A stretch of 64,000 nt of DNA, taken from positions 1-64,000 of the forward strand of contig NZ_RQYW01000002.1 in assembly GCF_003932895.1 (NCBI RefSeq). Reading direction: 5' to 3'. The position numbers and the translations under genes were made by a program. How positions within the stretch are numbered: the first letter of the stretch is position 1; every line of letters starts with the position of its first letter. This stretch comes from Leptotrichia sp. OH3620_COT-345. Its GTDB lineage: Bacteria; Fusobacteriota; Fusobacteriia; Fusobacteriales; Leptotrichiaceae. The notes beneath the pieces were generated by a model. It saw only the letters and a program-made list of their open reading frames with translations, was not told the DNA's origin and did no database searches. Of the stretch, positions 1 to 45,959 are shown piece by piece.

Positions 1-254
1 GTCATGAAAAATAATAATACCCCTCCACATAGCTGACTTAATTTTAAAGATACTCCGCGATACACTATCAGCATTCCGTAATATAATGCATTTACTACCC
101 TGCCTATTATACTCCCTCCCTGCTTTGATGCTTCTTTAAATACTTGGGCAAAGGCATCTGAATTGGCATCTGCAAAGGAAACTGCACTCAGTAGCATAAA
201 CATTATTAACACAAGCCTGCCTGTACTTAGCAGACTCTTTCTTTTTATTTTCAT
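1..254 (-). CDS. N-terminal part of a small secreted/membrane protein (cut by window edge)
   Basis: This open frame starts at the ATG ending at 254 behind a clear AGGAGG site and runs off the left edge, so only 84 residues are seen. Residues 1-28 form a signal peptide (KRK, then a hydrophobic stretch, ending SAVSFA before DA). The mature part begins with a polar stretch and then a hydrophobic segment. This layout resembles the VirB2-like pilin at 9.7-10.0 kb, and the gene lies downstream of a VirB6-like gene, so a second pilin-like subunit is possible. That assignment is inference; the C-terminal half is needed to decide. Confidence 0.6.
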   Translation of the reverse strand, partial: MKIKRKSLLSTGRLVLIMFMLLSAVSFADANSDAFAQVFKEASKQGGSIIGRVVNALYYGMLIVYRGVSLKLSQLCGGVLLFFM

Positions 255-477: not shown

Positions 478-2445
478 TTAGAAGTTAATTGCAATCGATA
501 CTCCTACCTGCTTTACTACACTCTGAATGATACTTATACACAAAAAGACTTTAATGGTATTAACAAAATTAAACGGTGTCAATATTACTCCCAATGAAGA
601 CTTACCTATCATTTCTATTATCATTGCAAGAACAATAATTACTCCGAAATTCACAAGATACTGTAAAAATCCGCTTATAATTATCTGCAATGTATTCAAA
701 GCTTTTGATTTTGTTATATCATTCATTCCGAATATCATATAAAACAAACCTACTGATGTAGAAATTATGAATGTCAATGAACTTAAAAATATATTAAGTG
801 CAATGTTAAGTAGCGTTATTATAGTCATAAGTCCTGCAAGGGAAGTAATAGGTCTGAATATTACTGCCTGCATTATCACTCTCGATATCGAAAAAAGAAG
901 ACCAAATGTTTCCCATGCTTTTTCAAGTACTGAAACATCTCCTGAAAACCATCCTCCTATAACTTTCCATATTGTACTGAAAAATCTGAATAATCCACTT
1001 ATAGATTCTTTCTGTTTCATAACTCCCGCTCCGAATGTCCCTATGATAAGCGGCATTCCTTTCTTTACAATATGTACTATCAAATCGGAATACGTCACAT
1101 ATTTACCGTTTTCCACGGGGATTTTACTTGCATTTATAAAACTTCCGAAAAGATGTGTTGGCAGTTTATGAAGAAATAAAGGCATTACTACATTTTTCAT
1201 CAACACGGGATAAAGTGCCACAAAAACAAAATATGGAGCTTTCTGAGCTATCTGCCCTAAAATGCTTTTGATAATTTCTTCTAATGAACCGTGAAGTCCT
1301 CCTTTAAAGACCGTCCATAAAACATTTATTGTAATCAGAAACACCATAATAGCCATTATTAAAGTTGAAAATCCCGCCATTCCTTTATTGGCAGTTGAAA
1401 AGAAATTCCCCGTCATTCCTGTAATCTCTTTTATTATATTTTCCTGATTAATATTTTCTGTAGCTTCGGCTAAAGGATCCGCAGAAGTAAATCCGTTATA
1501 CGCCAAATAAACTTGATTTCTCGGCATACTATATGTAGTTATTTTAGGATTCACCGACGGAAGATTCAATATTTTCCCCCTGCTGTATACACTTTTTTTT
1601 ATGTCCTCCCGTTCGGCTATATTTGTTTCATCATCAATGAAATAAGCTTTACTTATAACAGTTTCAAAAGGTACTACATATGCTGTATTATTTGCATCCG
1701 TCATCGGTACAAAAGATTTTACACTTGAACCTTCTTCATACATATTTCCTCCCATTTCGAGCATTTTCAGCTGACCCCCTGTATCCTGATAAACTAATCC
1801 AACTGTATCAATAGAACTGTTATTTTTATAGTTCATAATGATAAGATCTCCAGGTCTTAAAGGCATTCCCTGTTTCAGTTGATATTTTGTCATGGCTGCA
1901 AAATCTTCCAAATCAAGTTCATTAAAAGCAGCTGTTGATATTCCCGCAATACCGTACATGTATTTTATAAGTCCCGCATGGTCTGTTCCTTCCAGTGCCG
2001 TATTTGATTGTTTTTTTTCCGTAGTATATGTATTCCCTGACGAATCTTCGATATCACCCCGTTTTATTTCATATTCATATTCATGTCCGTTATACGTATA
2101 ATTCTGATTATAGGGAATCTGTCTTTTCCCGTTAAAATTGTTATTAATCTGACTATTCAACGTCTGCTGAATATTTTTTATCTTATTAATTAAATTAAGA
2201 TGATTTACCACATTTAAATGACAACTTACACTTTTTCTGCCAAAAATTGCCAGATTATAATTGTTCACTATTGTATCGTATGATTTATATGACTGATCCA
2301 TATTCCCCCGCCGTCCGTAATTAAGTTCTGCCAAAAGTTTTATTTTCATATCTGACAACTGATTTTCACAATTGTCCTGGCTATCCGAAGTTGAAAATGT
2401 CATTATATTTATAATAAGAAACAAAATAGTTAAAATTTTTTTCAA
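478..2445 (-). CDS. VirB6/TrbL-like membrane protein with an inactive NlpC/P60 domain
   Basis: The likely start is a TTG at 2445, with GGAG ten bases upstream. An in-frame TTG at 2469 would place the ribosome site inside the gene. Numbering here is from the longer form (663 aa). There is an N-terminal signal segment. Residues 160-270 have the layout of an NlpC/P60 cell-wall peptidase: GTDHAGLIKYMYG (161-173) in place of the usual DCSG box, LRPGDLI (204-210), and DTVGLVY (221-227) in place of the HVGIY box. The catalytic Cys is replaced by His and the catalytic His by Thr, so the fold is probably kept without activity. From about residue 360 to the end there are multiple membrane segments with spacing like VirB6/TrbL channel proteins of type IV secretion systems. 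Infer a trans-envelope channel subunit whose periplasmic part may bind peptidoglycan. Confidence 0.6.
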   Translation of the reverse strand: MKKILTILFLIINIMTFSTSDSQDNCENQLSDMKIKLLAELNYGRRGNMDQSYKSYDTIVNNYNLAIFGRKSVSCHLNVVNHLNLINKIKNIQQTLNSQINNNFNGKRQIPYNQNYTYNGHEYEYEIKRGDIEDSSGNTYTTEKKQSNTALEGTDHAGLIKYMYGIAGISTAAFNELDLEDFAAMTKYQLKQGMPLRPGDLIIMNYKNNSSIDTVGLVYQDTGGQLKMLEMGGNMYEEGSSVKSFVPMTDANNTAYVVPFETVISKAYFIDDETNIAEREDIKKSVYSRGKILNLPSVNPKITTYSMPRNQVYLAYNGFTSADPLAEATENINQENIIKEITGMTGNFFSTANKGMAGFSTLIMAIMVFLITINVLWTVFKGGLHGSLEEIIKSILGQIAQKAPYFVFVALYPVLMKNVVMPLFLHKLPTHLFGSFINASKIPVENGKYVTYSDLIVHIVKKGMPLIIGTFGAGVMKQKESISGLFRFFSTIWKVIGGWFSGDVSVLEKAWETFGLLFSISRVIMQAVIFRPITSLAGLMTIITLLNIALNIFLSSLTFIISTSVGLFYMIFGMNDITKSKALNTLQIIISGFLQYLVNFGVIIVLAMIIEMIGKSSLGVILTPFNFVNTIKVFLCISIIQSVVKQVGVSIAINF

Positions 2446-2474
2446 GTTTATTCTTCTCCTTTCTTTCAAAAAAT

Positions 2475-2996
2475 TTATATTCCCTTTTTCTGTTCTTTAG
2501 TTACTTTTTTCGCTTCTTCATAAACTTTTTTCATTGTTTCTTCTTCAAATTTTTTAAATTCCTCCGCCTGTCTCAACATTTCCTCTTCACTCTTAGGCAT
2601 ATTCTTTCTCACTTCTTCTCTGAACTTGACTATATCCTCATCTGAAATAAACATATTCTGCTCTTTCAGAAGCTCTTTTATTTCTTCATTGGACATTGAA
2701 AGTACTTCATTTATACTTTGTTCGTAAGTTTTGACTCCTTCAGGTTTTTCTTCAAACGATTTCATTTCCTCTTCGATTACTTTTCCCTGCTCACTTACAA
2801 TTTCTCTACTTTCCAGTTCTCTTTTTTCTCCTGTATTTGTAATTCTCACAAAATTTGCATTAAACAGTGAAATAATAATATATATTGCTATTCCGAGTAT
2901 ACCTATAAAAACATATTTTTTCTGCACTATATATTTACCTAAAGTCATTTCTTCTTCCAGTGACAGTATAAAATCCGTAAATTTATTCCTTTTCAT
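2475..2996 (-). CDS. single-pass membrane protein of the secretion cluster, function unknown
   Basis: A 173-residue protein starting at an ATG behind a perfect AGGAGG site. A short cytoplasmic N-terminus (1-27) is followed by one membrane helix (about 28-47) and a long, highly charged Glu/Lys-rich segment likely to be helical or coiled coil. It lies six bases upstream of the VirB6-like gene and closely follows the 171-aa gene, so it is probably co-transcribed with both. The bitopic layout is like VirB8 or VirB10-type bridge proteins, but I see no motif that allows a family call. Confidence 0.6.
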   Translation of the reverse strand: MKRNKFTDFILSLEEEMTLGKYIVQKKYVFIGILGIAIYIIISLFNANFVRITNTGEKRELESREIVSEQGKVIEEEMKSFEEKPEGVKTYEQSINEVLSMSNEEIKELLKEQNMFISDEDIVKFREEVRKNMPKSEEEMLRQAEEFKKFEEETMKKVYEEAKKVTKEQKKGI

Positions 2997-3006: not shown

Positions 3007-3522
3007 TTATTTATCCTGCTTTCTAAAAAGTCGGTTATAATTCAATTTTTCGGCAAAAGTTCTGAAATCACTTTCTTCAAGTTCTATAATATCTAGTTCC
3101 AACATTTCCCTTATTAAATTTTTCAATTCCGTTTCGGGAAGAAATCTGATAGAAAGTCTTTCAAATGCAGGAATGGAGTCTCTTAAATATATCACGGCTT
3201 TTTTTCTGAAATCAAAAAGACCGTCGGCCTCCACCTCTCTTAAAATATATTCCTGATTTTTCAGTACAATATCAAAATAACTTTCTATTTCTTTAATGCT
3301 ATTTTTTATTTTTACATATTTCAGTTCATAAGTTTTTTCTCTGTCAAATATTCCGAATATTTTTTTTCTGATTGTAATTAAAATTTTTCTATTTTCATTT
3401 TCAGTTACTTTTATATAACCTTTTATTTTCCTCTTCATTCCATAAATTGTAAATCCTGATTTTTTTAATATAAAAATCATAACTAACATAAGTAAAATCT
3501 GTATTATATCTCTAAACATCAT
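3007..3522 (-). CDS. small membrane-anchored protein of the secretion cluster, function unknown
   Basis: A 171-residue protein with one hydrophobic segment at residues 5-22 and a basic stretch after it. The remainder is a mixed alpha/beta, charged cytoplasmic-looking domain with no motif I recognise. It sits 10 bases before the 173-aa gene and 23 bases after the 803-aa gene on the same strand, so it belongs to one transcription unit. The start chosen is the first of two adjacent ATG codons, preceded by an AAGGAAAGGG purine run. Confidence 0.55.
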   Translation of the reverse strand: MMFRDIIQILLMLVMIFILKKSGFTIYGMKRKIKGYIKVTENENRKILITIRKKIFGIFDREKTYELKYVKIKNSIKEIESYFDIVLKNQEYILREVEADGLFDFRKKAVIYLRDSIPAFERLSIRFLPETELKNLIREMLELDIIELEESDFRTFAEKLNYNRLFRKQDK

Positions 3523-3545: not shown

Positions 3546-5957
3546 TTATATTCCTGAAAGTATGTTTTTCATTCTTTGCTCAACTGTTTCAATTCTGTAT
3601 GTCTCACTATTTACATCGAGATTGTAATGAGTCGTTTCAATATATTCTTCATTTACATAAATATCAAAACTGTTACTGTTCGGAATAAAATTTCTGAGTA
3701 TTATTTCCTTTCTCTTTTCTTCATTCTCATATCCGAGAACTTTGTTGCCTAGGTTTATTATCCCATCCAGTATAAGCATAATATTTATAAATTTCCCATA
3801 ATTTTTAAACAACGGACTGCTTATTTTAAGTTCTTTATTAGAATTTATATTAATAAACAGATATTTTATATTCTCTCCTAATATCCTATGGTACTTAAAT
3901 ATGTTAGGCGGCATAACTTCATAATCAAAATCAGTTTCAAAAGGATTTTTCCTGTTTATTTTATATTTCATTTTATATTTATAGTTAAGATATTCTGAAT
4001 AAGTCACCTTTTTTCTTTCTATTTTCCCTTGTGGGTTAAGAAAAAGCATTTCTCTCTTTATATTACTTTTCCTGAAAATTTTGTACTTGTCTTTTATAAT
4101 ATGTATATCGACCGCATTATATACGATGTTGTCAAGAAAAGAGTTCACATTATTCATATTATTAAAAAAAGCTACTGTAACAAATTTATCACTTTTTTTT
4201 TCACCATATTCACCAAGCAAAGGAATGACAAAGTCAAATTTTTCCCAAAGCTCCATAAAAATCTTTATAAACAGAAAGTCTTTATCTATATGTATAATAC
4301 TTTTATCATATTCTTCCATTGTTGTTACTCTATTTTCATTTAAAATGTTTTCACTTTTAAAATAAAAGTTTTTATATCTGTTCAAAATATTATATATATC
4401 ATCAAGAAATATTCCTGTAACTCTGTCTTTTACTCCAAGTTTCATCTCTTCTTTTTTTCTCAGGTTCTTTACTTTAAAATTAAAAGAAAAATCTTTGTTT
4501 TTCCTCTCTAACTCAGCAAGATTAGCGTTCATTTTCTTTTTAATCTCTCTAACAGTCTGAAAATAATTTTCTTTTTCCTTTTTTATATTCTCACTGATAT
4601 CATATTTTACTTTTTTCTTTATTTCTTCATTTACTTCATTTTCCATATATTTTTTTTCAAGTTTTAAATATTTTCTTTCTATCTTCTTGAAAAAATTTCT
4701 TTCTTTATTTTTAAAAAGAAGCTCAATCTGTTCTCTTTTATAATCCGATATTTGGGAAATTTTCTCCATATCGTTCAGCTTTATACTTTTTCTCATATTT
4801 TTTCCGTCTTTGTTATAAGCTCCTATAATATACGGTCTAAGCTCATCGGTAATTTCCTTGAACACTACATTTTCTACTATATTAATAAGCGTTATACTCT
4901 CTGTATCAATATTGTATAAATCTGTATTTACAGCATAATATTTTATCGGCTGTCCCTCTTCTGTCCGTATAGTCAGATTTTTCCCCATCATTTTTTTAAA
5001 TTTTTCAAATATAAGTTTTCTAAAAAGCTCTTTTTTAGAAACTTCATTTTTTACAAGTTCTCCATTTTCAGAGATATATCCTGTTATCCTGTATACACCG
5101 TTATCATTTCCGAAAAAAGACTCAGGAATTAAAATACTTTTATTTCCCCTATCAAAAGTCAGTCTCGCTTTAATGACCTTTTTCTCAATTAATTCAAGTT
5201 TTTTTTCATCATTAATATTAATTTTATTTTCGGAAAAATTAAGTTTAAGACTCTTCATTACAGGTATCTCAGCTAAAAAACTTTCTTTTTTATATTTTAT
5301 TTCACTGTTTCCTTTTTCATCTTCAGAAAGATAAGGTATTTCATACTGAAAATTCTTTTTTATAAAGTTGAATATTTTCATTAAAATATACGACTGATTA
5401 ATTTCCCTTTTCTGGTTTTTAATTTTTTTATTTATACTGTCCCTTTTTTTATTGTATTCATCTTTAGCATTCCGTTTTTTATAACTGTCACATCTTTTTA
5501 CATATATACTGTAAAGTCTATCGGCTATTTTTTTTGAAATTTCATTATAATTTTTTTCAAGTTCATCGTCATTTACTTGAACTGTAATATTCTCTTTTCC
5601 GAAAAAATTGTAAAAATCCAGTACACTTATTATATAGTCGGTTTCCTTATTATCATTTCTATTTTCGAGAAAACTGTCTTTTCCCTTTATAAAAGTTTCA
5701 AAAATCACCTTTTTTCTTTTTTGAATTTTTATTATCTGTTCAGAAAGAAAACCGTTTACTTCCTTCTGTTTTTCACTGTCACTTATTTCATAAGTTAAAT
5801 CAGGATTGGAATTTATTACGATTTTTCCTGTCTTTTCTATGTTTACATCACTGTTAAGTATATTTCTTACATCATTGAAATTAAGACTTATATTATTAAG
5901 CTCATTTATATTTCTAAAACTGAGATTATAGAGTCTTTTTACCATTTTTTTCACCAC
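3546..5957 (-). CDS. large unknown protein (803 aa) of the secretion cluster
   Basis: I do not recognise this protein. It has no signal peptide and no membrane segment, and is very rich in Lys, Glu, Asn and Ile. Residues about 395-500 look like a long coiled coil. The flanking regions look globular, with alternating hydrophobic strands. The start overlaps the end of the 540-aa gene by 32 bases; a second Met four codons in (start at 5945) would reduce the overlap to 20 bases. The overlap indicates translational coupling and a shared role with the 540-aa protein. A cytoplasmic factor for the secretion apparatus, or a large exported substrate, are both possible; no ATPase motif (Walker A) is visible. 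Confidence 0.6.
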   Translation of the reverse strand: MVKKMVKRLYNLSFRNINELNNISLNFNDVRNILNSDVNIEKTGKIVINSNPDLTYEISDSEKQKEVNGFLSEQIIKIQKRKKVIFETFIKGKDSFLENRNDNKETDYIISVLDFYNFFGKENITVQVNDDELEKNYNEISKKIADRLYSIYVKRCDSYKKRNAKDEYNKKRDSINKKIKNQKREINQSYILMKIFNFIKKNFQYEIPYLSEDEKGNSEIKYKKESFLAEIPVMKSLKLNFSENKININDEKKLELIEKKVIKARLTFDRGNKSILIPESFFGNDNGVYRITGYISENGELVKNEVSKKELFRKLIFEKFKKMMGKNLTIRTEEGQPIKYYAVNTDLYNIDTESITLINIVENVVFKEITDELRPYIIGAYNKDGKNMRKSIKLNDMEKISQISDYKREQIELLFKNKERNFFKKIERKYLKLEKKYMENEVNEEIKKKVKYDISENIKKEKENYFQTVREIKKKMNANLAELERKNKDFSFNFKVKNLRKKEEMKLGVKDRVTGIFLDDIYNILNRYKNFYFKSENILNENRVTTMEEYDKSIIHIDKDFLFIKIFMELWEKFDFVIPLLGEYGEKKSDKFVTVAFFNNMNNVNSFLDNIVYNAVDIHIIKDKYKIFRKSNIKREMLFLNPQGKIERKKVTYSEYLNYKYKMKYKINRKNPFETDFDYEVMPPNIFKYHRILGENIKYLFININSNKELKISSPLFKNYGKFINIMLILDGIINLGNKVLGYENEEKRKEIILRNFIPNSNSFDIYVNEEYIETTHYNLDVNSETYRIETVEQRMKNILSGI

Positions 5958-7548
5958 CGGTTATTTTTCTGTAAAGTTCTTGATATCCCCGATTTTTCTC
6001 AATATTTTCAGCTTTTATTATTTTCTTTATAAAAAACGGCTCTTTAAGTAATTTGATCATAATCAATTTAAAATCTTCAGTTTCATTTTCTGTTTTCTCA
6101 AGCAGAGTGAAAATAAACTTCCTTTCAGTCGAAATTAATCTCATTCTTTTTATAATAAGTTCTTTTTCAATTTCGCTCACTTTCTCAATTCTTCTTAAAA
6201 CATTTTCTCTTTCAGACATAAATTTACTTTTAAGTTTAAATTTTCTGTTTTCATAATATCCTTCATCCTTATAAAGAAAAGTCAGAAAATCTTTCTGTGT
6301 ATCTTCTTCTTTGAGTTTTTCTATTAATTCCAGTGCATTTGAAATTTGTATAAAGTCATTTATGTTACAGTTTAAAGTTACTTTGTCTCCACTAATTATA
6401 ATTCCTGGATTATCCGTTTTCAGGTCTGTTTTATAATTTCTCTCTGTACTGTCAAGATTTTCAAATGTCAGAAAACTTTTTTTGTCTTCATTCTCCCTGT
6501 TATACTGAAGATAAAGTAAATCATAAAACAAAGGATCACTGTAATTTTCCATCATTTCATCATCAATTTTTACATTATCACGATAAGTCAGACTGTTTCT
6601 GTGATGACTTAGAATTTCATATTTCAAAAACTTTATCTCCTGCATAATATTTGAATTTTCCTTATATTCTTGAGAAATTAAGGGAAACTTCATTATATTG
6701 TTTCTTATAAGAATATTGGCATAAGTAAAATGTCTCATTAAATTTATTATGTCATTTTCTTTACGAAATGCATTCAAAATATTTTCAATACTGTTATTAG
6801 TATCATTTTTTTCATTTATATGAAAATCAAACTGTTCTATTTCTTCCAAATAGTTTTCCAGTTTATTTCTAATATCTATGGAATTTTCAAATATATTTAC
6901 TTCATCCAGCTCTTCAAATGAACTGTTGAGTTCAGCAAGTTCTCCAAGTATTACAAGATTTTCTTCTTTTCGGATAAAACTTTTGAATTTTCCATAATCT
7001 TCCCAAAGTTCGCTTAATAATACATTTACAAACTGTGTCATTTCTTTTCTAACTGTATCTGTTTGAGCATCTATTCTTCTTATTTCAGCTTCATACTGTT
7101 TTGTTTCTATATCTGTAGCATATTTTTTATTATACTTGTTATAATTTTTTCTTTCAGCTTTTAATTCATTGTATTTTCTGATTTTATTTTTAAATTCAAG
7201 AAGCTTGTTATTACTTTCAGTCTTTTCAGTAAAATTTACCTTTTCCAAATGTTCATAAAGTACAAAAGCTATCATTATCATATCATAGAACTCTTCAAGT
7301 GTTGTAATTTCTCCTTCTTGAATTTTTTCATAATACTTTCTATATATATTATTAAGCTTTTCATTAATATTTCTATAGTCACTTTCTTTTACTTTTATAT
7401 TCTTACGGTATTTTTTACCAATATTATGTAAACTTCCGTCTGTAAATTTTTTTCTTTTTCCCCTGTCTTCTATTTTTTCTTCCTGTAATTTTCTTATTTC
7501 ATCATTTGTGAGAACTCTATCTATAAAAGTTTCTCCATATTCTTTCAT
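5926..7548 (-). CDS. large unknown protein (540 aa) of the secretion cluster
   Basis: I do not recognise this protein. It is hydrophilic, Lys/Glu/Asn rich and predicted helical over much of its length, with coiled-coil-like stretches near residues 100-170 and 430-490 and no signal peptide or membrane helix. Its ATG overlaps the stop of the upstream signal-peptidase gene by four bases (ATGA), and its end overlaps the start of the 803-aa gene, so three genes are translationally coupled. The tight coupling argues for a multi-subunit assembly or a sequentially acting set of proteins. Confidence 0.6.
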   Translation of the reverse strand: MKEYGETFIDRVLTNDEIRKLQEEKIEDRGKRKKFTDGSLHNIGKKYRKNIKVKESDYRNINEKLNNIYRKYYEKIQEGEITTLEEFYDMIMIAFVLYEHLEKVNFTEKTESNNKLLEFKNKIRKYNELKAERKNYNKYNKKYATDIETKQYEAEIRRIDAQTDTVRKEMTQFVNVLLSELWEDYGKFKSFIRKEENLVILGELAELNSSFEELDEVNIFENSIDIRNKLENYLEEIEQFDFHINEKNDTNNSIENILNAFRKENDIINLMRHFTYANILIRNNIMKFPLISQEYKENSNIMQEIKFLKYEILSHHRNSLTYRDNVKIDDEMMENYSDPLFYDLLYLQYNRENEDKKSFLTFENLDSTERNYKTDLKTDNPGIIISGDKVTLNCNINDFIQISNALELIEKLKEEDTQKDFLTFLYKDEGYYENRKFKLKSKFMSERENVLRRIEKVSEIEKELIIKRMRLISTERKFIFTLLEKTENETEDFKLIMIKLLKEPFFIKKIIKAENIEKNRGYQELYRKITGGEKNGKKTL

Positions 7549-8141
7549 GCCTTTTTTCCTTTCGCTACTTTATTTATAAATTTCTCAAGGATTTCTTCTT
7601 TTATTAAAAGTTTCATTTCATATTTAAAGTCTCTTTTATTTAAAATACCTAAATAGCGTGAATCAAAGGATGTTTCGGTATCTCCCATAAGATAATACTC
7701 ATCTTTTTTTAAAATATATTTTGTATTTTCTATAGTATCGGTAATTCCTTTTATTTTCAGTATTTTCCCTTTTTTCTCACTGTTAATAAACAGCATTCCG
7801 TCATTTTTTATTTCTATAATATCTCCTTCCACAGCTACGATTCTTTTTAGCAAATATATGTTTTTCATTTTGTCTTTATTTGGAAAATTTTCTATATATT
7901 TTGAATATTTTTTATCCATTATAAAAAGTACCAAATTTCCTTTTCTATAATCAGGAAAAAACTTTTTCAGATATACGCCTTTTGTTAAACTGTCTGTTAC
8001 ATTATATGTTATTCTGCTAAGGCAAAATGTTATACTGAAAAAAATAAAAAACAGTGTAACAAGCTTTGTTGTAAATTTATGTTTTTTCATTATTTTTAAA
8101 ATTTCCGTTATTTTTCCTTTGGATATATTTAAAATATTCAT
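7545..8141 (-). CDS. TraF-like S26 signal peptidase
   Basis: A 198-residue serine protease of family S26, closest in layout to TraF, the conjugation-specific peptidase that matures or cyclises pilins. There is one membrane anchor (about residues 24-44). The nucleophile Ser51 lies in NVTDSLTKGVY, the general-base Lys99 in LLKRIVAVEGD, and the structural box GDTETSFDSR at 153-162. It overlaps the next gene by ATGA. A VirB2-like pilin gene lies about 1.5 kb upstream on the same strand, which fits a role in pilin processing. The family is clear from the motifs; the substrate is inferred from context. Confidence 0.85.
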   Translation of the reverse strand: MNILNISKGKITEILKIMKKHKFTTKLVTLFFIFFSITFCLSRITYNVTDSLTKGVYLKKFFPDYRKGNLVLFIMDKKYSKYIENFPNKDKMKNIYLLKRIVAVEGDIIEIKNDGMLFINSEKKGKILKIKGITDTIENTKYILKKDEYYLMGDTETSFDSRYLGILNKRDFKYEMKLLIKEEILEKFINKVAKGKKA

Positions 8142-9671: not shown

Positions 9672-10046
9672 CTACACTATCAGATATAAATTCCGAACCA
9701 TCATCTCAGGATCTATGTTTGCACCAAAAATCCAGTAAATAAGATCTCCCACTGCCCACGTAATTCCGATAATGACAGCTGCCTGAATAAATTTCATGAA
9801 CATTCCTGCCAAATCAGGCGGACGACCTGCCGTAAAAAGTTCCGGAAAAATTCCCAAAACTGCTATAAAAAGCACTACTCCCGTTATTATCCATTGAAGA
9901 AACTGGATATATCCGAAAAGTGTACCGTTAACATCCTGTGTTATTTCCAGTGCATTCTTATCTATATCGGCAGCATATCCCTGAGCCGATAAAAAAAACA
10001 TAAAAATTATCATTACAAATATTGTCACTATTTTTCTGTTACACAT
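9672..10046 (-). CDS. VirB2/TrbC-like pilin
   Basis: The protein is 124 residues from the Met at 10046, preferred because GAAAGG lies nine bases upstream; an in-frame ATG at 10073 gives 133 residues. It has a long signal peptide ending near SAQGYA-AD, then two hydrophobic helices (about residues 50-72 and 88-108 of the long form) joined by a short polar loop (ELFTAGRPPDLAG). This is the hallmark of the VirB2/TrbC pilin family, which builds the extracellular filament of type IV secretion systems. The TraF-like peptidase in the cluster could mature it. The call is strong on topology and context, but pilin sequences diverge fast. Confidence 0.65.
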   Translation of the reverse strand: MCNRKIVTIFVMIIFMFFLSAQGYAADIDKNALEITQDVNGTLFGYIQFLQWIITGVVLFIAVLGIFPELFTAGRPPDLAGMFMKFIQAAVIIGITWAVGDLIYWIFGANIDPEMMVRNLYLIV

Positions 10047-10131
10047 ATTCCTTTGCCTTTCTTTTTTATTCATATTAATTTCAAAATTACAACTTTTTCA
10101 CTGTTTTAAAAATCGCAAAAACAAAAGTTTA

Positions 10132-11655: not shown

Positions 11656-12912
11656 TTATCTTACAATATTTTTCATATTGTTTTCATTTTTTTGTTCTTT
11701 CAAATTCGGACTTAATTCAGAAACAGCTTTATCAATCCATTCCGAAAGATTTTTTAAAGGTTCTTTATTATTAATATTTAGATTATTTTTAATGAAGTCT
11801 TCCTTTTTACTTACCCTATTTTGCCAACCTTTTAAAAAAACTCCCTGTTCAGGATTTCTTTTAACTATATTATTATAATATTCCCTCTGTGAAATATGAT
11901 AAGCTTTGAGAAACTTTTCAGGATCTACACTGTTTAATGCCTCTAATGTATGTTTTCCTATTATTCCATCTACTGTCAGATTACTATTTTCATTAAGGGT
12001 ATTCAACACTTTTTGGGCTTTTTTGACTCCATTTGCCCCACTATTAACTATCCAGTCGCAAATCGAAAGAGCTATTCTATCATCATTTATTTTATCAAGT
12101 TTATTTCTGTAGAAATATTTATTTTTGTAAATTTCTTTTGCAGATTCCAGTGGGAAATTACGCATATCCCCTTTATATCCGTATTTTCTTGCTTCTATTT
12201 CTATAATTCCGTACTTTGTTGCTCCACCTTTATCATTTTTATGATTGGAATATCCCCCTTCCACATCTATAAGATATTTAAATATACTTTCAAATCTTTC
12301 TATATCTTTTTTCAGCTTTTCCTTATTTTCGACAGTAACTGCCTTGTCAGAAGTATCTATTCCTTTTTTTATAGTTTCCTTACTTTTTGTAACTATATTA
12401 TTTTTAACTGCTATTTTTTCAAGAGAAGATCCTCCTAAAAATCTTTTTTGCCACTTTTCACTGTCCAAATTCGAAATTCTGACTCCGTGTCCTGCGGTTG
12501 CAACAGTTTTATTACGCTCTCCTCCTCCTCCGGAATCTATAAATTTACCTTCTCCTATATATATCCCCACATGACCTACTTTACCTTTCTTTTTCGCTGT
12601 ATCAAAAAAAACTAAATCTCCCGGTTTTAAATCTTTTCTTTTTAAATTATGGTTCACATATTCTGATTGATTTACAGAACCCTCAGGAATTTTTAATCCC
12701 GTTTTTTTAAAAACATATGAGGAAAATCCTGAACAATCAAAATAATCAGGCCCCTTTTTCCCCCATACATAGTTGTTTCCTTTTCTTTTTGCCAATATTT
12801 CTTCAGCCATTTTCACAACATCATTTCTTAAATCATCCATTGAAATAATACTTTTCTTTTCTACTTTTTTTCTACTATTAAGATTTAATAATTCTTCCAT
12901 ATTATTAGACAT
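11656..12912 (-). CDS. two-domain peptidoglycan hydrolase: NlpC/P60 endopeptidase plus GH108 muramidase
   Basis: The 418 residues hold two cell-wall-cutting domains. At 30-160 is an NlpC/P60 cysteine peptidase with Cys60 in FDCSGFSSYVF, PGDLVFF at 97-103 and His114 in KVGHVGIYIG. At about 205-300 is a GH108 N-acetylmuramidase, with the likely catalytic Glu218 in DVEGGYSNHKNDKGGATKYG. A PG_binding_3-type region follows (GKHTLEALN). Both active sites look intact. There is no signal peptide and no membrane helix, so it must leave the cell by another route, such as the type IV apparatus, or act after lysis like an endolysin. It lies between a lipoprotein gene and an LprI-like gene. Local wall opening for secretion (VirB1-like) or an anti-bacterial effector are the main options. 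Confidence 0.85.
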   Translation of the reverse strand: MSNNMEELLNLNSRKKVEKKSIISMDDLRNDVVKMAEEILAKRKGNNYVWGKKGPDYFDCSGFSSYVFKKTGLKIPEGSVNQSEYVNHNLKRKDLKPGDLVFFDTAKKKGKVGHVGIYIGEGKFIDSGGGGERNKTVATAGHGVRISNLDSEKWQKRFLGGSSLEKIAVKNNIVTKSKETIKKGIDTSDKAVTVENKEKLKKDIERFESIFKYLIDVEGGYSNHKNDKGGATKYGIIEIEARKYGYKGDMRNFPLESAKEIYKNKYFYRNKLDKINDDRIALSICDWIVNSGANGVKKAQKVLNTLNENSNLTVDGIIGKHTLEALNSVDPEKFLKAYHISQREYYNNIVKRNPEQGVFLKGWQNRVSKKEDFIKNNLNINNKEPLKNLSEWIDKAVSELSPNLKEQKNENNMKNIVR

Positions 12913-13935: not shown

Positions 13936-16900
13936 TTAATAATTCATCATTTCTCTCACATATTCAGTAGCTTCCTCCTTTTCTTCTCTGATTTTTTCCA
14001 TATCTTCTTCATGCTCTCTTTCAGCTTCGGTTCTTTCTTCTTCTTTCTTAATTTCTACAGCTTTCATTACAGTAATTTTTTTATTGTTATTTAATTTTTC
14101 TTTGGTTTTCTCCTGATTTTGAAGAGATTCTTTCCTATCCTGACCAATTTTTCTCATATCTTCTTCGTACTCTCTTTCAATTTCACTCAAAATTTCCTTT
14201 ATTCTGGACTTTACTTCTTCAATTTCCTCATTCAACTTTTTCCGATTATTTCTAAATCTTTTTATTTCATTATTTTCAAAAACTTTTCTTCCTGTCAGAT
14301 TTGATTTTCTAAGTGTATTAATTTTCATTTGCCCTCTGTAACGAGCAAATCTGTCACTTATATTCAGCTCCTGAAAACTTTGATTGTGATAATCCGTTTC
14401 AACAAAAGTTCCTTCACCATCTATTGCAAGAAGTTCCCTTATATAGCTGTTATCCACATTTTCATATTTTATAATATAATCTATAAATTCCCTGTCACTG
14501 AATTTATTAAGAGAAAATTTTTCAGAAAAATCACCGTCTTCGGATTCGCTTTCAAGCCTGTTTATAAACCTGTCTGCAAACCTGTTTACAGTTTTTTTCG
14601 TTTCTTCATCCATTTTCTCAAGTTTTTCTATATCTCTGTTCAAAAGTGCATGCATTTTTCTATTGTTTTCATTAAGTTCCGTCTGGTTTTCCCTAAGTAA
14701 TTTTTTCTCTAAATTTGCAGCTTTTTTACGTTTTTCATTTAAAAAATCTTTATTAATTCTTTTTATATCAAGATTCCCCATTATCCTATTTAGTACTTCT
14801 ACTTTTTCTTCAACACCAGCAGTATTATAAAATCCGAAACTGTATTCTATTTCTCTTTTAAGCTGATAATTCAATTTAGGATTTATTACTATATCATTTC
14901 TGAGCAGTTCCGTATCAGTATAATAATCTCTAAGTAGTACTTCCCATTTTTCTTTTATCAAATCTTTTAAAACTTCAATATAAAACCTATCTGTAACCCT
15001 CAATATATCTTTATATTTTTCTTCAATAATTTTATTTTTCATTAATATTTCCACTGCCATTGTGGAAGTAAGCTTATTTTCCATTGTACGAAGCTTGGTT
15101 TTCAGAAGATTACTTTTTTTCATACTTTCTATGTTCTGTCCGAAAAATTTTATATTTTCAATGTCAATTTTCGTTTTTTCTATTTCTTTAATAAGATTTA
15201 TTTTACTCTTATTTTTGATTATATTATCAAAATTCTCATTAAAAATTTCCTGATTTTTTAAATTAAAAAAATCTATTTTCTCCTGAGCTTCTTTTATCAT
15301 TTCAGAAAATTCCAAAGCCTTATTCTGAATATAATTACTCTGCCCTCTTAAAATCTTCAGATCCGGTTCATCTTCAAAGAAACTATCTTTAAAAGAAACG
15401 TCAAGGTTCTCATTACCATCTACGCTTCTCCTGAAGCTACTTTCTCTCACTTCCTCTACTTTTAGATTATCCTTAAAAATTTTACCGTCTCTGTTCACAC
15501 TGAAACTTTGCTTAAATGCTCCTAATATAAAAGCCATATTACTTTTATCTTTAAATTTATATTTTTCGACAATATCACCAGCAGGAACATGCCGACTTAT
15601 CATTTTATTGATTTGATTCTTATTTTGTTTAAGTTTGTATAGATCAGCTTTTTCTATTTTAAAATAAGGATTTTCAGAAATATTTTCCGAAAATTCTTCA
15701 AGGTCATCATCACAAATATCTCTACTTTCTTTAATTATCGAATTTTCATTTATATGGGAAACTACTTTCTCAATGTTTTCATGATTCGTTGTAAGAAGAG
15801 GATCAATAATTTTTATTACAGCCCTGTCAAGTCTCGAGCTAAATTCATAATTTATCCCGTTAAATATATAATCAGATGAATTTTCATTAAGTATATTTTC
15901 TAATTCTTCGATATTTGTAATTATGTCCTCTAAAACTTCTTCAGGTTCAATCCCTATTTTATTGAAAATCAAATTTCTAATTTCATCATCAGTATCATTA
16001 AAATCAAAAATTCCATCTTCTGTTTTTATGAGTTGATTTACAATTCTTCCTCTATTATCGGCAAATCTTTCAGCTGTTTTTATTAAATTACTTCTACTCT
16101 CCTGATTTAATATATCAAATTCCATATTAATAAAATCAACATTAATTTTTCCGTTTATAACGGGAACTTTAAGTCCGAAAAAAGGATTTTCCGTATCATC
16201 AATTACTATATACGTTTTTCCTTTCATCTTTTTTTTCATAAATTCATTTATTATCAGCTTATTTAATATCATATTTTTGGTAGTATCGGATGGAGATTTT
16301 CCAAGCTTTTTTTCAAGATTTTTAAATAATCTTTCATTATCTTTATATAATTTTTTTAAATTACGACTTGTCATTTTTTTCATATTATACCTATCAAGAA
16401 AAGGTTTTAACTGTCTATACTCCTTTAAATAATCATTTGAATTAAAATCCAGAATCTCTGTATAAGTATCCAAAGTTTTTATTTGAAAATTATCCTTTAA
16501 TTTATCAATTCTATTTATTTTATCGAAATCTGTATAATAAAATTCCTTTTTTAGATTTCTTTTTACATTATCATATTCAAATTTAAAATCTTTTTTGTCT
16601 TTTATTATATTATACAGTCTTTCATTTTCATATATTTTAAATACCGTATCGGTTAAATCGTCAGAAGAACCTTCACAGAAAAGAATTTTTTTCGGAAAAC
16701 TAAAAAAAGGAAACATGTAAGATTTCAGAATATTTTCTGCTCCATGTTTCAAAACATCTGATACAAATTCTTCAAAAAAAATTTTATTAAACATTTTCAC
16801 CTCTGATGAATAAAGTTTTTGAAGACTCATTATTTCTTTATTTTTCATTTCCTGCCGTTTTTTTTCATAATTATCTGCAAGACTGTCATAGCTAAGCATT

Positions 16901-17430
16901 TCTGTTAATATTATTTTATCCGACTTTTCCTGGCTTTCATTTAATATAGTATAAAGTTTATGAGGATATAATGTACCCATAAAATATCCTATATTTTTAA
17001 AATCCATTTTCAAAAACTTATTTCTTTCGCTATACAGTTTTTCCAAATTTTTATCAGTAAATTCCTCTTTCTGATTCTGATAATACTCTTCCTCTCTTTC
17101 AAAATATGAATCTCCATTTCTTCCTCTTTTATTTTCTTTAATATTATTGCTTTCATATTTTATTACTTTATTATATCCTTTATTTTCCGACAATATTTTT
17201 AGATTACTAAAAAAAGGACCGAGCTGTTCATATTTCCCTTCGGAAAAATTTATATATATTGTTTCAAATATATTTTTTGAAATAATATATTTTTGAGCTT
17301 TAAAATTATATTCTAAATCAATATCTTCTTCATTATAACTTTGTATTAAATTTTTTTTATCCACACAAAAAGTTTTCCTGAAATATTCCCGAAATTTTTC
17401 GTCAATATTTTTTACTTTTCCTTCTTTCAT
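13936..17430 (-). CDS. very large unknown protein (1164 aa) of the secretion cluster
   Basis: I do not recognise this protein. It has no signal peptide, membrane helix or Walker motif. The sequence is Lys/Glu/Asn rich; a globular-looking middle (about residues 390-540, containing KGKTYIVIDDTENPFFGLKV) is followed by long helical stretches. The last 100 residues form a charged coiled coil with a repeated unit: REYEEDMRKIGQDRKES and REHEEDMEKIREEKEEA. It lies between the secreted NlpC/P60 gene (24-base gap) and the lipoprotein gene. With the 540- and 803-aa proteins it makes a set of three large unknown soluble proteins in one cluster. Confidence 0.6.
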   Translation of the reverse strand: MKEGKVKNIDEKFREYFRKTFCVDKKNLIQSYNEEDIDLEYNFKAQKYIISKNIFETIYINFSEGKYEQLGPFFSNLKILSENKGYNKVIKYESNNIKENKRGRNGDSYFEREEEYYQNQKEEFTDKNLEKLYSERNKFLKMDFKNIGYFMGTLYPHKLYTILNESQEKSDKIILTEMLSYDSLADNYEKKRQEMKNKEIMSLQKLYSSEVKMFNKIFFEEFVSDVLKHGAENILKSYMFPFFSFPKKILFCEGSSDDLTDTVFKIYENERLYNIIKDKKDFKFEYDNVKRNLKKEFYYTDFDKINRIDKLKDNFQIKTLDTYTEILDFNSNDYLKEYRQLKPFLDRYNMKKMTSRNLKKLYKDNERLFKNLEKKLGKSPSDTTKNMILNKLIINEFMKKKMKGKTYIVIDDTENPFFGLKVPVINGKINVDFINMEFDILNQESRSNLIKTAERFADNRGRIVNQLIKTEDGIFDFNDTDDEIRNLIFNKIGIEPEEVLEDIITNIEELENILNENSSDYIFNGINYEFSSRLDRAVIKIIDPLLTTNHENIEKVVSHINENSIIKESRDICDDDLEEFSENISENPYFKIEKADLYKLKQNKNQINKMISRHVPAGDIVEKYKFKDKSNMAFILGAFKQSFSVNRDGKIFKDNLKVEEVRESSFRRSVDGNENLDVSFKDSFFEDEPDLKILRGQSNYIQNKALEFSEMIKEAQEKIDFFNLKNQEIFNENFDNIIKNKSKINLIKEIEKTKIDIENIKFFGQNIESMKKSNLLKTKLRTMENKLTSTMAVEILMKNKIIEEKYKDILRVTDRFYIEVLKDLIKEKWEVLLRDYYTDTELLRNDIVINPKLNYQLKREIEYSFGFYNTAGVEEKVEVLNRIMGNLDIKRINKDFLNEKRKKAANLEKKLLRENQTELNENNRKMHALLNRDIEKLEKMDEETKKTVNRFADRFINRLESESEDGDFSEKFSLNKFSDREFIDYIIKYENVDNSYIRELLAIDGEGTFVETDYHNQSFQELNISDRFARYRGQMKINTLRKSNLTGRKVFENNEIKRFRNNRKKLNEEIEEVKSRIKEILSEIEREYEEDMRKIGQDRKESLQNQEKTKEKLNNNKKITVMKAVEIKKEEERTEAEREHEEDMEKIREEKEEATEYVREMMNY

Positions 17431-17453: not shown

Positions 17454-18107
17454 TCAGGATATATCTACTATTCTTTTAATAGCTACCATTTTTGACATAA
17501 AGTATCCCTGATTAAGAGGAACAATAACTACTTTATCGCTACTACTGGAAGCATGAATCATTTTTCCGTTTCCAAGATACATTCCTACATGAGAGACGGT
17601 ATCAGGTCTTTTCGGATCAGTTTCAAAAAATATGAGATCTCCTTTTCTTACAGCTGCAAGGCTTACACTTCTTCCCACCTTTGCTTGATCTCTTGATACT
17701 CTCGGAAGTACAATTCCTATAGATGAATACACATTTTTAACAAAAGCTGAACAGTCAAGACCTTTTCTTGTAGTTCCTCCCCACAAATAAGGTATTCCAA
17801 GGTAGGTACTTGATTCACTTACCAATTTATTAAGAGCTTTATTAAGCATAACATATTTATTTGATTTTGAACCTGTAAGTTTTAAATTTATATTTAATTT
17901 TTCTTTTGTAGATTTTATATTACCGTCTCCTATTTCATAATTACGTGAAGCTGCAGGTATATCAGGATTTTCTCTATTTACAGAGTTACCTGCTTCTACA
18001 TTCGATTGATTTTTTTCGACTTTTCTGTTTTTTTCCATCGTAAATCTCATTCTGCTGGCAAAAGTAAAAGACGGAATAATCAACATGATAAATAGTATCT
18101 TCTTCAA
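17454..18107 (-). CDS. secreted NlpC/P60 peptidoglycan endopeptidase
   Basis: A 217-residue protein starting at TTG, six bases after AGGAG. Its signal peptide (MKKILFIMLIIPSFTFA) is followed by a low-complexity linker and a complete NlpC/P60 domain at 90-215: Cys119 in KGLDCSAFVKNVY, KGDLIFF at 155-161, His173 in SHVGMYLGNG, and the third polar residue His185 in MIHASSSS. These enzymes cut the stem peptide of peptidoglycan. Its place right after the VirB6-like gene suggests a VirB1-like job, making room in the wall for the transport complex. Confidence 0.88.
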   Translation of the reverse strand: MKKILFIMLIIPSFTFASRMRFTMEKNRKVEKNQSNVEAGNSVNRENPDIPAASRNYEIGDGNIKSTKEKLNINLKLTGSKSNKYVMLNKALNKLVSESSTYLGIPYLWGGTTRKGLDCSAFVKNVYSSIGIVLPRVSRDQAKVGRSVSLAAVRKGDLIFFETDPKRPDTVSHVGMYLGNGKMIHASSSSDKVVIVPLNQGYFMSKMVAIKRIVDIS

Positions 18108-18156: not shown

Positions 18157-19911
18157 TTATACTTTAATATTTTCCTTTTCAGAATTTTTATTTCTTGAAT
18201 CTCTATTTATATTCTGACGTATTTGCTCAGAATTTTTCTCAGTATTCATATTCTCGTTTTTTCCTTTCTCTTTTTCATTTTCTTTTTTTCTCATTTTTTC
18301 CCTTACAATTTCATTTACTGTTTCTGAATATTTTTCTCCATAACCGGTTACAAAATCTTTAGTAATATTTCTCAAATCGGAAAAATTCATTTTTTTTGTT
18401 GCCTTACCAATATCATTTCCTGAATTTCCTGCATTTTCGACATTTTTTACTGCAGCAGAAAGAATATCTCTTCCTCCTTTACTTTCTATACCACTTTCAA
18501 GAGGATTTTTTCCACCACTTTTTCCTCCTGCCAGAGAACTGCCTTTGCTGAAAGTATTTCTCAAGAAATTTGCACCTATGAGCATATTAAATCCCCCGTC
18601 AATAACTTCAGTAGTAATTGAGCTTCCTTTAATATATGCTGCATTTCCTGCATTGAGAAATTGACCTATTGTCTTTATCTGCATAATAAGACCGTTTACA
18701 ATAAAAACTCCTATTATCATTCCTATAAGTTTACTCACATCCGAGCTACCGTTTCCATCAAGCCTGTCAATGAGGTTAAAAGCAAAACCCATAAGAGCAA
18801 ACATAACTATAACGTTCACTATTGCAGCTGTGACTCCTCCTATTGCACCTACTCCTATATTTTTAGTAAATCCAAGAGCCATAAAAATCATAACTACCAT
18901 TGCAAAACATCCTATAATCAAATAATCTACCAATACTGTCATTATTTCAATTGCCGCTTTTATACATAGCCATAAAAGTACAAATCCTGAAAACAATATA
19001 ACAATAGGAAGAATATTATTTACTATTCCTTTTACACTGAACATCATTTTTACTCCTGAAACCATAACAGCAAAGGGAACATTAAACAGCTTGGTTAAAT
19101 AATCAGGAAGATTATATATACTGAAATTTTGCCCTGAAATCATACCTCCGATTTTCATTGCAAGATTAAATAACGGACCTGTATAAAAATTCCAGAAAAA
19201 TCCGTTTGCAAGTATCATAACAAGTGTCCCCATTACTACAAGCTGAGGAAACATATCTTTCATAACCATTAATATAGTTTTAGAATCTTCAGTATTAGGA
19301 TTAGTTACTCCTTTAAATATATTAATAAGTATTTCCAAAGTCCCCATAAGCAGAAGAAATACCGCCAAAACATTGGAAAGTACTCGTCCGATCTTATCCG
19401 TTATATTTCCTGTAACTTTAAACAGATTCACCACAACTTTACTTCTTATGTCGTATGTGTCTTTTATTTTTCCTATAGGAGATTTTTCATAATTCGGATT
19501 ATTTACCGAACCGTTACTTCCTCCACCTGACTTCAGTTCTCTCAGTTCATTTGCCATAAATATTACAGCAAGAATTATTTGCCATGGTTTCAGTTTTACT
19601 TTTTTCCATGTTGAAGGATTTGTACTCGTATCATTTTCCGAGCTGAGAGATGACGAATTCATTCCTTTAACAGCATTTCCAAGATTATATAAATTCGTAC
19701 CACTTGCAGCTGAAGACATAATTTTTCCAATATTAAACATAACAGGATCATCATTAGACTGTTTATTCTTATTCTGTATTTCATTATACAAAGCATTCCG
19801 AACCTGTGCATTTTTTGCATCCTGAAGAGCATTTGTAGTAGTTGTAGCAAAAAGTCCTATGTTCAGTATAATGAAAATTATTCCTACTATTCTTTTTATA
19901 TTCATAATCAT
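18157..19911 (-). CDS. VirB6/TrbL-like channel protein
   Basis: A 584-residue polytopic membrane protein. A signal or first helix (residues 5-25) is followed by a polar stretch, then about six to seven membrane segments between residues 105 and 420, including the Gly/Ala-rich GVGAIGGVTAAIVNVIVMFALMG-like region (each hydrophobic run about 20 residues). A polar, Asn/Lys/Glu-rich cytoplasmic tail runs from about 440 to 584. This layout matches the TrbL/VirB6 family, the inner-membrane channel of type IV secretion systems. It is the first gene of the cluster, with about 600 non-coding bases upstream holding terminators of the neighbouring operon. Confidence 0.7.
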   Translation of the reverse strand: MIMNIKRIVGIIFIILNIGLFATTTTNALQDAKNAQVRNALYNEIQNKNKQSNDDPVMFNIGKIMSSAASGTNLYNLGNAVKGMNSSSLSSENDTSTNPSTWKKVKLKPWQIILAVIFMANELRELKSGGGSNGSVNNPNYEKSPIGKIKDTYDIRSKVVVNLFKVTGNITDKIGRVLSNVLAVFLLLMGTLEILINIFKGVTNPNTEDSKTILMVMKDMFPQLVVMGTLVMILANGFFWNFYTGPLFNLAMKIGGMISGQNFSIYNLPDYLTKLFNVPFAVMVSGVKMMFSVKGIVNNILPIVILFSGFVLLWLCIKAAIEIMTVLVDYLIIGCFAMVVMIFMALGFTKNIGVGAIGGVTAAIVNVIVMFALMGFAFNLIDRLDGNGSSDVSKLIGMIIGVFIVNGLIMQIKTIGQFLNAGNAAYIKGSSITTEVIDGGFNMLIGANFLRNTFSKGSSLAGGKSGGKNPLESGIESKGGRDILSAAVKNVENAGNSGNDIGKATKKMNFSDLRNITKDFVTGYGEKYSETVNEIVREKMRKKENEKEKGKNENMNTEKNSEQIRQNINRDSRNKNSEKENIKV

Positions 19912-20514: not shown

Positions 20515-21786
20515 TCACAAAACCAATAAACTCGGTTTCAGCAACAATATCAATCCAAGTATAATCATCAAAATTCCTCCGAAAAGATTCATCCATTTAG
20601 AATATTTTGATGTCAATTGTAATTTATTTACACTTAATAACGCAAAACCGAATACTATAAAATCATCTATCATATACCCTAATATGTAAATAAATGTGTA
20701 CAAGTGTTTCTGTACAAAAGATATATTGTTTATTTGAAGTATTTTAGTAAAAGTCTGGGGTATTCCTACAGAACAGGCAAACTCTATTACATTTACAGAC
20801 AGGGCAAGCCCTATTATTCCGAGAACAGTTAAAAATGTGAACGGTTTATCAGCTATATTTCTTATTTTTCCTGAAATTTCAGCCCTCTTTTTAAAATCCG
20901 TAACTTCACAGGACAGCTCATTCCCTTTTTTCAAAAAGTTCCTCATGAAAAATATTCCGCCTATTATCCCTATAATTCCGACGGCAGGAGTTATCCATTT
21001 GTCAAGACCCACAAAATCCCAAGTATATAACCATACATTAAGTATAAGATAGTACATTACCGCTTCAGCAAATATAAAAAGTCCCGCCACTCTGAACATT
21101 TTCACTTTATTTCCCACTGCAACAAGAGCTGTCAAAAATAATACAAGAACCCACATTGCACAGGGATTAAAACCGTCTATCGTTCCTAAAACGGCAGCCA
21201 TTAACGGCAGTGAATAATTTGACAAATCTATAGTCTTATTTATAAACGGAATATTTACGATAATCTGTTTATTATAAGTCCCGACAGCTCCGGGTACTTC
21301 ACATACTCCGTCAATTTCACAAACTGCACCATCTTTAGCTACACTGGAAAAGTTGCCTTTTTCCATAAACTCAATTAATGTAGGTATGCTTTCTTTCTTT
21401 TTTCCCTTATTAATTTCCTTTACAATTTCTTTCCCTGTTGTATCGGCAGTGTTATAACCTTGTATTACACGCTCATTCACATAAATTATGGGAGTTCCTT
21501 TGACTAACTTCAACTTATCGGTAGTCTCATTGAAAAATTTTCTATTTTGAACATCTTTATCAATTTTATACTCTACATATGTAAAGTCATTTCTCTCAGT
21601 AGACAACTCTTTCAAAAATTTTTCAAGATTTGCACAATTTTTACAATCTTCTCTCCCAAAATATTCAATTTTTACTTTATCTTCTCCGAAAGACGGAAAC
21701 CCTGTCCAAAATAGAGTAGTGAATATAATCATTACTCCCGATACCGTTTTAAATTTCCCCATTTTTTTTATAATTGATTTTATCAT
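20515..21786 (-). CDS. glutaredoxin/thioredoxin-CcdA (DsbD-like) transmembrane thiol reductase
   Basis: This 423-residue fusion moves electrons across the inner membrane. After a signal anchor comes a periplasmic glutaredoxin-like domain with CKNC at 48-51 and a TPIIYV cis-Pro region near 98. A linker carries a further Cys pair (156/162), and a six-to-eight-helix CcdA/DsbD-type domain contains the two buried cysteines, Cys209 in NPCAMW and Cys338 in EFACSVG. Reducing equivalents would pass from cytoplasmic thioredoxin to the membrane Cys pair and then to the fused domain. It lies 19 bases after acpS on the same strand. The fused domain is at the N-terminus, opposite to the classical DsbD C-terminal domain. 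Confidence 0.82.
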   Translation of the reverse strand: MIKSIIKKMGKFKTVSGVMIIFTTLFWTGFPSFGEDKVKIEYFGREDCKNCANLEKFLKELSTERNDFTYVEYKIDKDVQNRKFFNETTDKLKLVKGTPIIYVNERVIQGYNTADTTGKEIVKEINKGKKKESIPTLIEFMEKGNFSSVAKDGAVCEIDGVCEVPGAVGTYNKQIIVNIPFINKTIDLSNYSLPLMAAVLGTIDGFNPCAMWVLVLFLTALVAVGNKVKMFRVAGLFIFAEAVMYYLILNVWLYTWDFVGLDKWITPAVGIIGIIGGIFFMRNFLKKGNELSCEVTDFKKRAEISGKIRNIADKPFTFLTVLGIIGLALSVNVIEFACSVGIPQTFTKILQINNISFVQKHLYTFIYILGYMIDDFIVFGFALLSVNKLQLTSKYSKWMNLFGGILMIILGLILLLKPSLLVL

Positions 21787-42538: not shown

Positions 42539-42692
42539 TCACTTTCTTTTAATTTTCATTTTCTTATTATATAATTATACCTTATTATTTTTGAAATTTC
42601 TACAATCAAATATTATTTTATATTCTTTATCATTTTTTCTTTCACTACTATTTTAATTTTTTATCTATTTCAATTAATTTTTTCAATTCCGT

Positions 42693-43903
42693 ATAAAAAT
42701 ACATCCTATGTTGATATTCAATGCTATCAATAAAGCAGCGAAGAAGGAAGTATTCCTTTGATTTAAATACATCCTATGTTGATATTCAATTTAAATTATC
42801 ATAATAGCCCTCTTTTAGACTTTTTCATTTAAATACATCCTATGTTGATATTCAATTGCTAACAATTATTTAGAAGTTATAGGAAATATATAATTTAAAT
42901 ACATCCTATGTTGATATTCAATATCCTGCTAGCTACTTTTCCATCTAAGAATAGAGTATTTAAATACATCCTATGTTGATATTCAATACATCTATAGAAA
43001 ATTCACCACTTTTATGTTTTATATTTAAATACATCCTATGTTGATATTCAATAATCTTCCGCAATAATAGCCAATACTCCAAAATGCTATTTAAATACAT
43101 CCTATGTTGATATTCAATGGCAGAATTGCCAGAAGCAATAAAATACGTATACAAATTTAAATACATCCTATGTTGATATTCAATACTTTTTGTAGAAAAA
43201 AGTCAACAAAACTAAGAGGATTTAAATACATCCTATGTTGATATTCAATCTTCATAAAATATTTTCTCTCTTAATTCCTTTCTTTATTTAAATACATCCT
43301 ATGTTGATATTCAATAATCTTAATATTGACCTTAGCGAACATCCTCATCTATTTAAATACATCCTATGTTGATATTCAATACAGTAGATAAAGGCTAAAA
43401 AGCATTACTACTGCCATTTAAATACATCCTATGTTGATATTCAATCGACTATTGAATCTATAGCGTCTTTCAATAAATCCTATTTAAATACATCCTATGT
43501 TGATATTCAATAGAGATTACATACCTCAAGAAGTTAAAGAGTGCAATATTTAAATACATCCTATGTTGATATTCAATACTACGGCATTGAATAGAGCAAT
43601 AGCGACTATTGAATTTAAATACATCCTATGTTGATATTCAATAATTTTTCTGGGTTTTCATTAAATTCATCTATTGTATTTAAATACATCCTATGTTGAT
43701 ATTCAATAACGTTTCAAGCCAGCTACGCTCATTCTTATATTCATTTAAATACATCCTATGTTGATATTCAATTTGCAAAACCAATCTGGGAAGTTCAAAA
43801 ATTTAGTTATTTAAATACATCCTATGTTGATATTCAATCCTCTCTTCAAGCTCTATAGATCCTCAGCTCGTCGATTTAAATACATCCTATGTTGATATTC
43901 AAT
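42693..43903 (-). CRISPR. CRISPR array, 19 repeats and 18 spacers, type I-B-like, no cas genes nearby
   Basis: The array has 30-base repeats; on the minus strand the unit begins ATTGAATATC, has ATAGGATG in the middle and ends TATTTAAAT, like type I-B repeats of Firmicutes and Fusobacteria. Spacers are 35-36 bases, except the leftmost (38). The leftmost repeat (42693-42722) carries two changes at its end, and all others look identical, so the old end is on the left and the leader on the right. Transcription from the minus strand fits this. Repeat starts: 42693, 42761, 42827, 42893, 42958, 43023, 43089, 43155, 43220, 43286, 43351, 43416, 43482, 43548, 43613, 43678, 43743, 43809, 43874. Confidence 0.97.
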
Positions 43904-44180: not shown

Positions 44181-44200
44181 TTAATATTAAATTTATTAAA

Positions 44201-45820: not shown

Positions 45821-45959
45821 TTTACTATCTCCTTCTTTCTTTAGGTTTTTTCGACCTTTATTTTAAACTAGATAATTTATTATACCTCATATAACGATAA
45901 ATTTCTATTACAACTTTATAATATTTCATATATTTTATATATTCTTTTATTTACTAAAG

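Follow-up and report, generated by a model that had tools for sequence, protein, structure and literature searches.

A VirB6-like protein with a degenerate NlpC/P60-like domain in a Leptotrichiaceae T4SS cluster

The window, that is, the whole stretch of 64,000 nucleotides analysed here, starts at the end of a contig (C2) and encodes near that end a VirB6-like protein that represents a catalytically dead version of a modular architecture, in which a wall enzyme is placed on VirB6. Extended VirB6 proteins and pseudoenzymes are both known kinds; the variant found here is that the domain added to VirB6 is a wall-enzyme domain, and a dead one. This domain is retained under purifying selection and is not decaying.

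The VirB6-like gene and its T4SS cluster

The sequence-only reading had placed an open reading frame at 478-2445. The frame is real, lies on the minus strand and is called from a TTG start as 478-2469, encoding 663 aa; the next TTG gives the shorter 478-2445 version. It is the sole long frame of the reported stretch, and the plus strand across it contains many stops. The layout of the protein is given in Table 1. The first hydrophobic segment is by its sequence a probable signal peptide, and is followed by a region (residues 28-110) without counterpart in the other fusions described below, where the NlpC domain comes directly after the signal peptide. A disulfide between Cys34 and Cys83 of this region is possible, given a DsbD-like gene (20515-21786) in the same neighbourhood.

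Table 1. Coordinates of the VirB6-like gene, its parts and its cluster (window positions), and of SLT fusions elsewhere (locus positions)
Feature	Location	Strand	Basis or remark
Start of next gene, third VirB6/TrbL-like protein	3..254	-	Begins at 254; cut by contig end
VirB6-like channel protein with N-terminal degenerate NlpC/P60-like domain	478..2469	-	663 aa; ORF, 84% ortholog, domain-less homologs
Residues 346-663, VirB6/TrbL-like membrane part, 6 hydrophobic segments	481..1434	-	Hydropathy, hhalign, synteny
Residues 276-345, linker	1435..1644	-	Colinear with linker of other fusions, identity low
Residues 111-275, degenerate NlpC/P60-like domain, catalytic positions His164, Thr222, Glu238	1645..2139	-	Pfam, shuffles, hhalign, dN/dS
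Residues 28-110, fast-evolving, probably helical, conserved Cys 34 and 83	2140..2388	-	Ortholog comparison, low-confidence model helices
Residues 7-25, hydrophobic N-terminal segment, probable signal peptide	2395..2451	-	Kyte-Doolittle peak 1.76
173-aa T4SS-cluster protein upstream of virB6b	2475..2996	-	Conserved in sister clusters
171-aa T4SS-cluster protein	3007..3522	-	Conserved
803-aa cluster protein	3546..5957	-	Conserved in sister clusters; homolog without Pfam match
TraF-like S26 signal peptidase	7545..8141	-	Pfam PF10502, E 6e-14
Probable VirB2-like pilin	9672..10073	-	Weak TrbC match, E 0.13; sister-cluster gene ~60% identical
NlpC/P60 + glycosyl hydrolase 108 + peptidoglycan-binding enzyme	11656..12912	-	Catalytic residues C-H-D intact
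Stand-alone NlpC/P60 enzyme	17454..18107	-	Catalytic residues C-H-H intact
Second VirB6/TrbL-like protein (VirB6a)	18157..19911	-	Pfam TrbL E 2.5e-5, slightly under cut-off
SLT lytic-transglycosylase-VirB6/TrbL fusion	L053:7215-8624	+	Adjoins NlpC-VirB6 gene
SLT lytic-transglycosylase-VirB6/TrbL fusion	L087:7474-8922	+	Adjoins NlpC-VirB6 gene
SLT lytic-transglycosylase-VirB6/TrbL fusion	L088:8519-9970	-	Adjoins NlpC-VirB6 gene

Besides the S26 TraF-like peptidase and the probable pilin, the genes of the cluster specify two VirB6-like proteins, a pair of NlpC enzymes and several further proteins that are conserved. In sister clusters the gene resembling the pilin adjoins virB11/virB8, and one such cluster runs on into VirB11, VirB8, VirD4, VirB4, VirB9 and VirB10; in the window's genome, contig C6 carries homologs of VirB4 (80% identical) and VirB10. 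Both NlpC/P60 enzymes, previously proposed to be active, have the catalytic residues that activity would require, and the stand-alone one is also kept where a sister cluster has no fused dead domain. The cluster further includes a very large protein of 1164 aa (13936-17430, minus strand). Elsewhere in the window (40943-49459, minus strand), four paralogous genes resembling oligopeptide-binding lipoproteins lie beside an Opp-type ABC transporter operon. Plasmid and phage records gave no match to the VirB6-like protein.

The C-terminal part contains hydrophobic segments at residues 370-388, 415-433, 544-562, 564-582, 596-614 and 641-659, so that the protein shows both the five or more membrane helices and the T4SS-operon location by which VirB6/TrbL proteins are recognized. 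It is assigned to VirB6 by synteny and by remote similarity of profiles, as Pfam TrbL (PF04610) does not match it at E up to 1, nor its sister-cluster homolog at E up to 0.5. In hhalign comparisons this part is nearest to the TrbL parts of the NlpC-TrbL fusions (E 9.6e-5; five unrelated membrane controls gave 0.2-0.5). The proposed order, a dead domain preceding a multi-helix VirB6-like part, is supported.

Resemblance to NlpC/P60, lost catalytic residues and conservation

The resemblance of residues 111-275 to NlpC/P60 is, at the level of sequence, weak but real. Pfam PF00877 aligns to residues 160-236 with 14.8 bits (E=0.028), under its curated cut-off of 23 bits, and scores 13.2 bits with the ortholog; the usual N-terminal Y-x-W-G-G segment is unrecognisable, and the alignment begins late. 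Two further profiles were made, one from the NlpC domains of relatives (the local profile) and the other from NlpC domains fused to VirB6. These gave 17.1 and 17.6 bits, respectively, whereas the best of 20,000 shuffles of the domain reached 11.9 and 15.6, and as no shuffle equalled the real score with either profile, the resemblance lies beyond chance. With the local profile, the window protein and its ortholog were the top two non-member frames among 613 (E=0.0009 and 0.0037). The profile search suggested by the sequence-only reading speaks for the domain by shuffling and by ranking, and falls short of it at the Pfam threshold.

Comparison of profiles points the same way. Against five NlpC-TrbL fusions, hhalign gave E 1.8e-5 with a two-sequence query and 5.7e-6 with a five-sequence query, and the match is colinear from the PGD motif, across the linker, to the first membrane helix, although identity in the linker is low and this portion carries limited weight. 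The AlphaFold2 models are of too low a confidence to be used as evidence of the fold (pLDDT 33 for the N-terminal half with two sequences, 39 for the full length with five), though the order of their helices and strands agrees with NlpC. A PDB sequence search with the single protein returned no match, and one with a two-sequence profile returned a single chance match (E 0.58).

The altered motifs are found as originally described, with DCSG replaced by DHAG (TDHAG, residues 162-166) and HVGIY by TVGLVY (DTVGLVY, residues 221-227). The catalytic Cys is thereby replaced by His164 and the catalytic His by Thr222, confirming loss of the Cys-His pair. The third catalytic His is also changed, probably to Glu238, when MLEMG is aligned by inspection with MIHAS of the neighbouring stand-alone NlpC. 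The only Cys of the protein are at positions 34, 83 and 644; none lies within residues 111-275, which excludes the alternative Cys-His pair that the sequence-only reading had named as the finding that would speak against it. Judged by these residues, the domain appears catalytically dead.

An ortholog that is 84% identical occurs in a Leptotrichiaceae metagenome-assembled genome (L006, also present as L002/L010) and keeps His, Thr and Glu at all three catalytic sites. By the Nei-Gojobori method on this single pair, dN/dS is 0.08 for the NlpC-like domain (90% identical) and 0.07 for the VirB6 part, while residues 28-110 show 0.30 and 49% identity. The replacements are kept and dN/dS is as low as in the channel part, and the dead domain is therefore considered to be maintained; just two orthologs carry it, and its conservation is read from this one pair. 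A pseudogene or sequencing error was rejected on the basis of the open frame, the identity of the ortholog at the key positions and the same dN/dS of 0.08. In three genomes of another genus (G004, G029 and G031), the syntenic T4SS cluster contains a homologous VirB6 (54-57% identical) without the domain, which is thus dispensable there.

Wall enzymes on VirB6 across the Leptotrichiaceae

The sequence-only reading had suggested that a dead hydrolase domain serving as a wall-binding part of a T4SS channel would be a new design. As an isolated case this does not stand, for the fusion of a wall hydrolase to VirB6 recurs in Leptotrichiaceae, in NlpC and SLT versions that mostly have intact catalytic residues. 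A search of relatives for NlpC/P60 gave several weak matches in long frames that on inspection proved to be NlpC-VirB6 fusions, and a profile of five of these was then used to find full-length matches. At least ten full-length NlpC/P60-VirB6(TrbL) fusions are present in the family, with matches in G000 (contig C3), G010 (twice), G011, G013, G019, G020, G021, G028, G030 and G032, and a split version in G004. Pfam assigns several of them both to NlpC (or the related CHAP/Amidase_5) and to TrbL, the TrbL match of L050 not being significant. Every fusion inspected keeps the catalytic Cys and His; in L050, L060 and L061 the automatic alignment ends short of the His, but the residue can be seen in the sequence GHVV.

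One of these fusions belongs to a second T4SS in the window's own genome (G000 contig C3, L047:9345-10919, minus strand), and others with intact Cys and His come from further genera. Like the window protein, this type consists of a signal peptide, NlpC/P60, a linker and a VirB6/TrbL membrane part, and genes for a TraF-like S26 peptidase and for a separate NlpC lie near it. The fused proteins differ from the window protein in keeping Cys and His, their VirB6 parts are only remotely alike, and their T4SS is of a different subtype (VirB4 38% identical).

Fusions of an SLT transglycosylase to VirB6 neighbour NlpC-VirB6 genes in three genomes (G004, G021 and G028; Table 1), and G018 encodes a close relative of the same fusion-type VirB6 that has a signal peptide but lacks any enzyme domain. 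Since related VirB6 proteins carry NlpC, SLT or no enzyme domain, the wall-enzyme module is exchangeable. Two large genomes of one genus (g9) also encode proteins that closely resemble the fused NlpC domain (L052:5473-6156 and L071:1498-2172); these end in one hydrophobic segment and have no VirB6 part. No plasmid record covered 80% of any of three tested enzyme-VirB6 fusions, so among the sequences covered here the architecture is seen only in Leptotrichiaceae. No contig was confirmed as viral, and no description of NlpC- or SLT-VirB6 fusions was found in the open-access papers searched.

The dead module and its possible role

Dead hydrolase domains in wall binding or in T4SS regulation have precedents. 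RipD (Rv1566c) of M. tuberculosis, whose triad is Ala83-Ser132-Glu144, is non-catalytic and binds peptidoglycan (PMC12067865). It has an NlpC/P60 fold whose triad is changed, as are the corresponding residues of the window domain (Ala-Ser-Glu against His-Thr-Glu); however, RipD is neither part of a T4SS nor fused to a membrane channel. PrgK of pCF10, a VirB1-like protein, has a degenerate LytM domain that regulates wall cutting within the T4SS (PMC11323569). It is likewise a T4SS subunit with a degenerate hydrolase domain, but its LytM/CHAP domains sit on VirB1, the same chain also contains an active muramidase domain, and the system is Gram-positive. The extended VirB6 proteins of Rickettsiales and of Gram-positive MPF-FA systems also join a large extra hydrophilic region to a VirB6 core; by contrast, their extensions are central or C-proximal and are not described there as wall-enzyme domains (PMC12857230). 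CwlT/Tn916 Orf14 and TcpG are NlpC/P60 enzymes serving T4SS, but as active, separate VirB1 proteins and not within VirB6.

The reading we favour, with moderate confidence, is that of a VirB6 subunit with a degenerate periplasmic NlpC/P60 module, which does not cut, holds the wall or a partner, and anchors the channel or controls a separate NlpC; as part of the same explanation, the protein would descend from, or parallel, the NlpC/P60-VirB6 fusions that keep their catalytic residues elsewhere in the family. The N terminus of VirB6 is periplasmic (PMC6536674; PMC6120205), and the VirB6 of R388 builds a periplasmic structure of five subunits (PMC12857230). The module would thus be periplasmic and lie around the base of the stalk of VirB6, displayed several times with the wall within reach and no longer cutting. 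Through its retained NlpC groove it may bind either stem peptides of the peptidoglycan or a partner protein, and so position the channel in the wall, or restrain or recruit the separate hole-making NlpC enzyme. A fused enzyme that retains its residues would serve as a VirB1 built into the channel. In the window's system, separate NlpC enzymes are present with or without a module on VirB6, so cutting is provided for elsewhere and the dead module most likely binds the wall or a partner.

Alternatively, the dead domain might make no contact with peptidoglycan and act in the periplasm as an architectural protein-binding module for VirB10, VirB8 or VirB5. In B. suis and A. tumefaciens, VirB10 is bound by the N terminus of VirB6, on which pilus assembly also depends (PMC6120205), and the extension with its two conserved Cys is absent from the enzyme fusions. 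We nevertheless consider this role rather unlikely, since the same syntenic system persists in sister clusters without the domain, and the NlpC core is more strongly conserved than the added region.

That the domain has a non-NlpC fold, its DxxG...PGD...VGLVY pattern arising by chance or convergence, would suit the weak score, the unrecognisable N-terminal segment and the unconfident model, but is improbable in view of the shuffles, the ranking among the 613 frames, the profile-profile match with the same domain order, and the order of strands and helices in that model. We give least credence, and very little, to a different catalytic or metal-dependent activity through His164, Glu238 and neighbouring acidic residues; the three replacements are invariant in the two orthologs, but this says little because the pair is so similar over the domain, and we know of no NlpC/P60 enzyme that uses a His-Thr-Glu set.

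Returning to the favoured reading of a non-cutting module, a broader and more tentative proposal, which we think somewhat doubtful, is that VirB6 of Leptotrichiaceae serves as a docking platform for exchangeable modules (NlpC, SLT or none), the one described here being a non-catalytic wall receptor that would couple assembly, the state of the peptidoglycan and the separate NlpC cutter. According to a 2025 review, the contribution of the extra domains of extended VirB6 to T4SS structure and function is not yet known (PMC12857230), and how channels come to be fitted into the peptidoglycan is also poorly understood. A family with intact, alternative, dead and absent versions of the wall enzyme in VirB6 offers a comparison set for both the role of such domains and the fitting of the channel into the wall.
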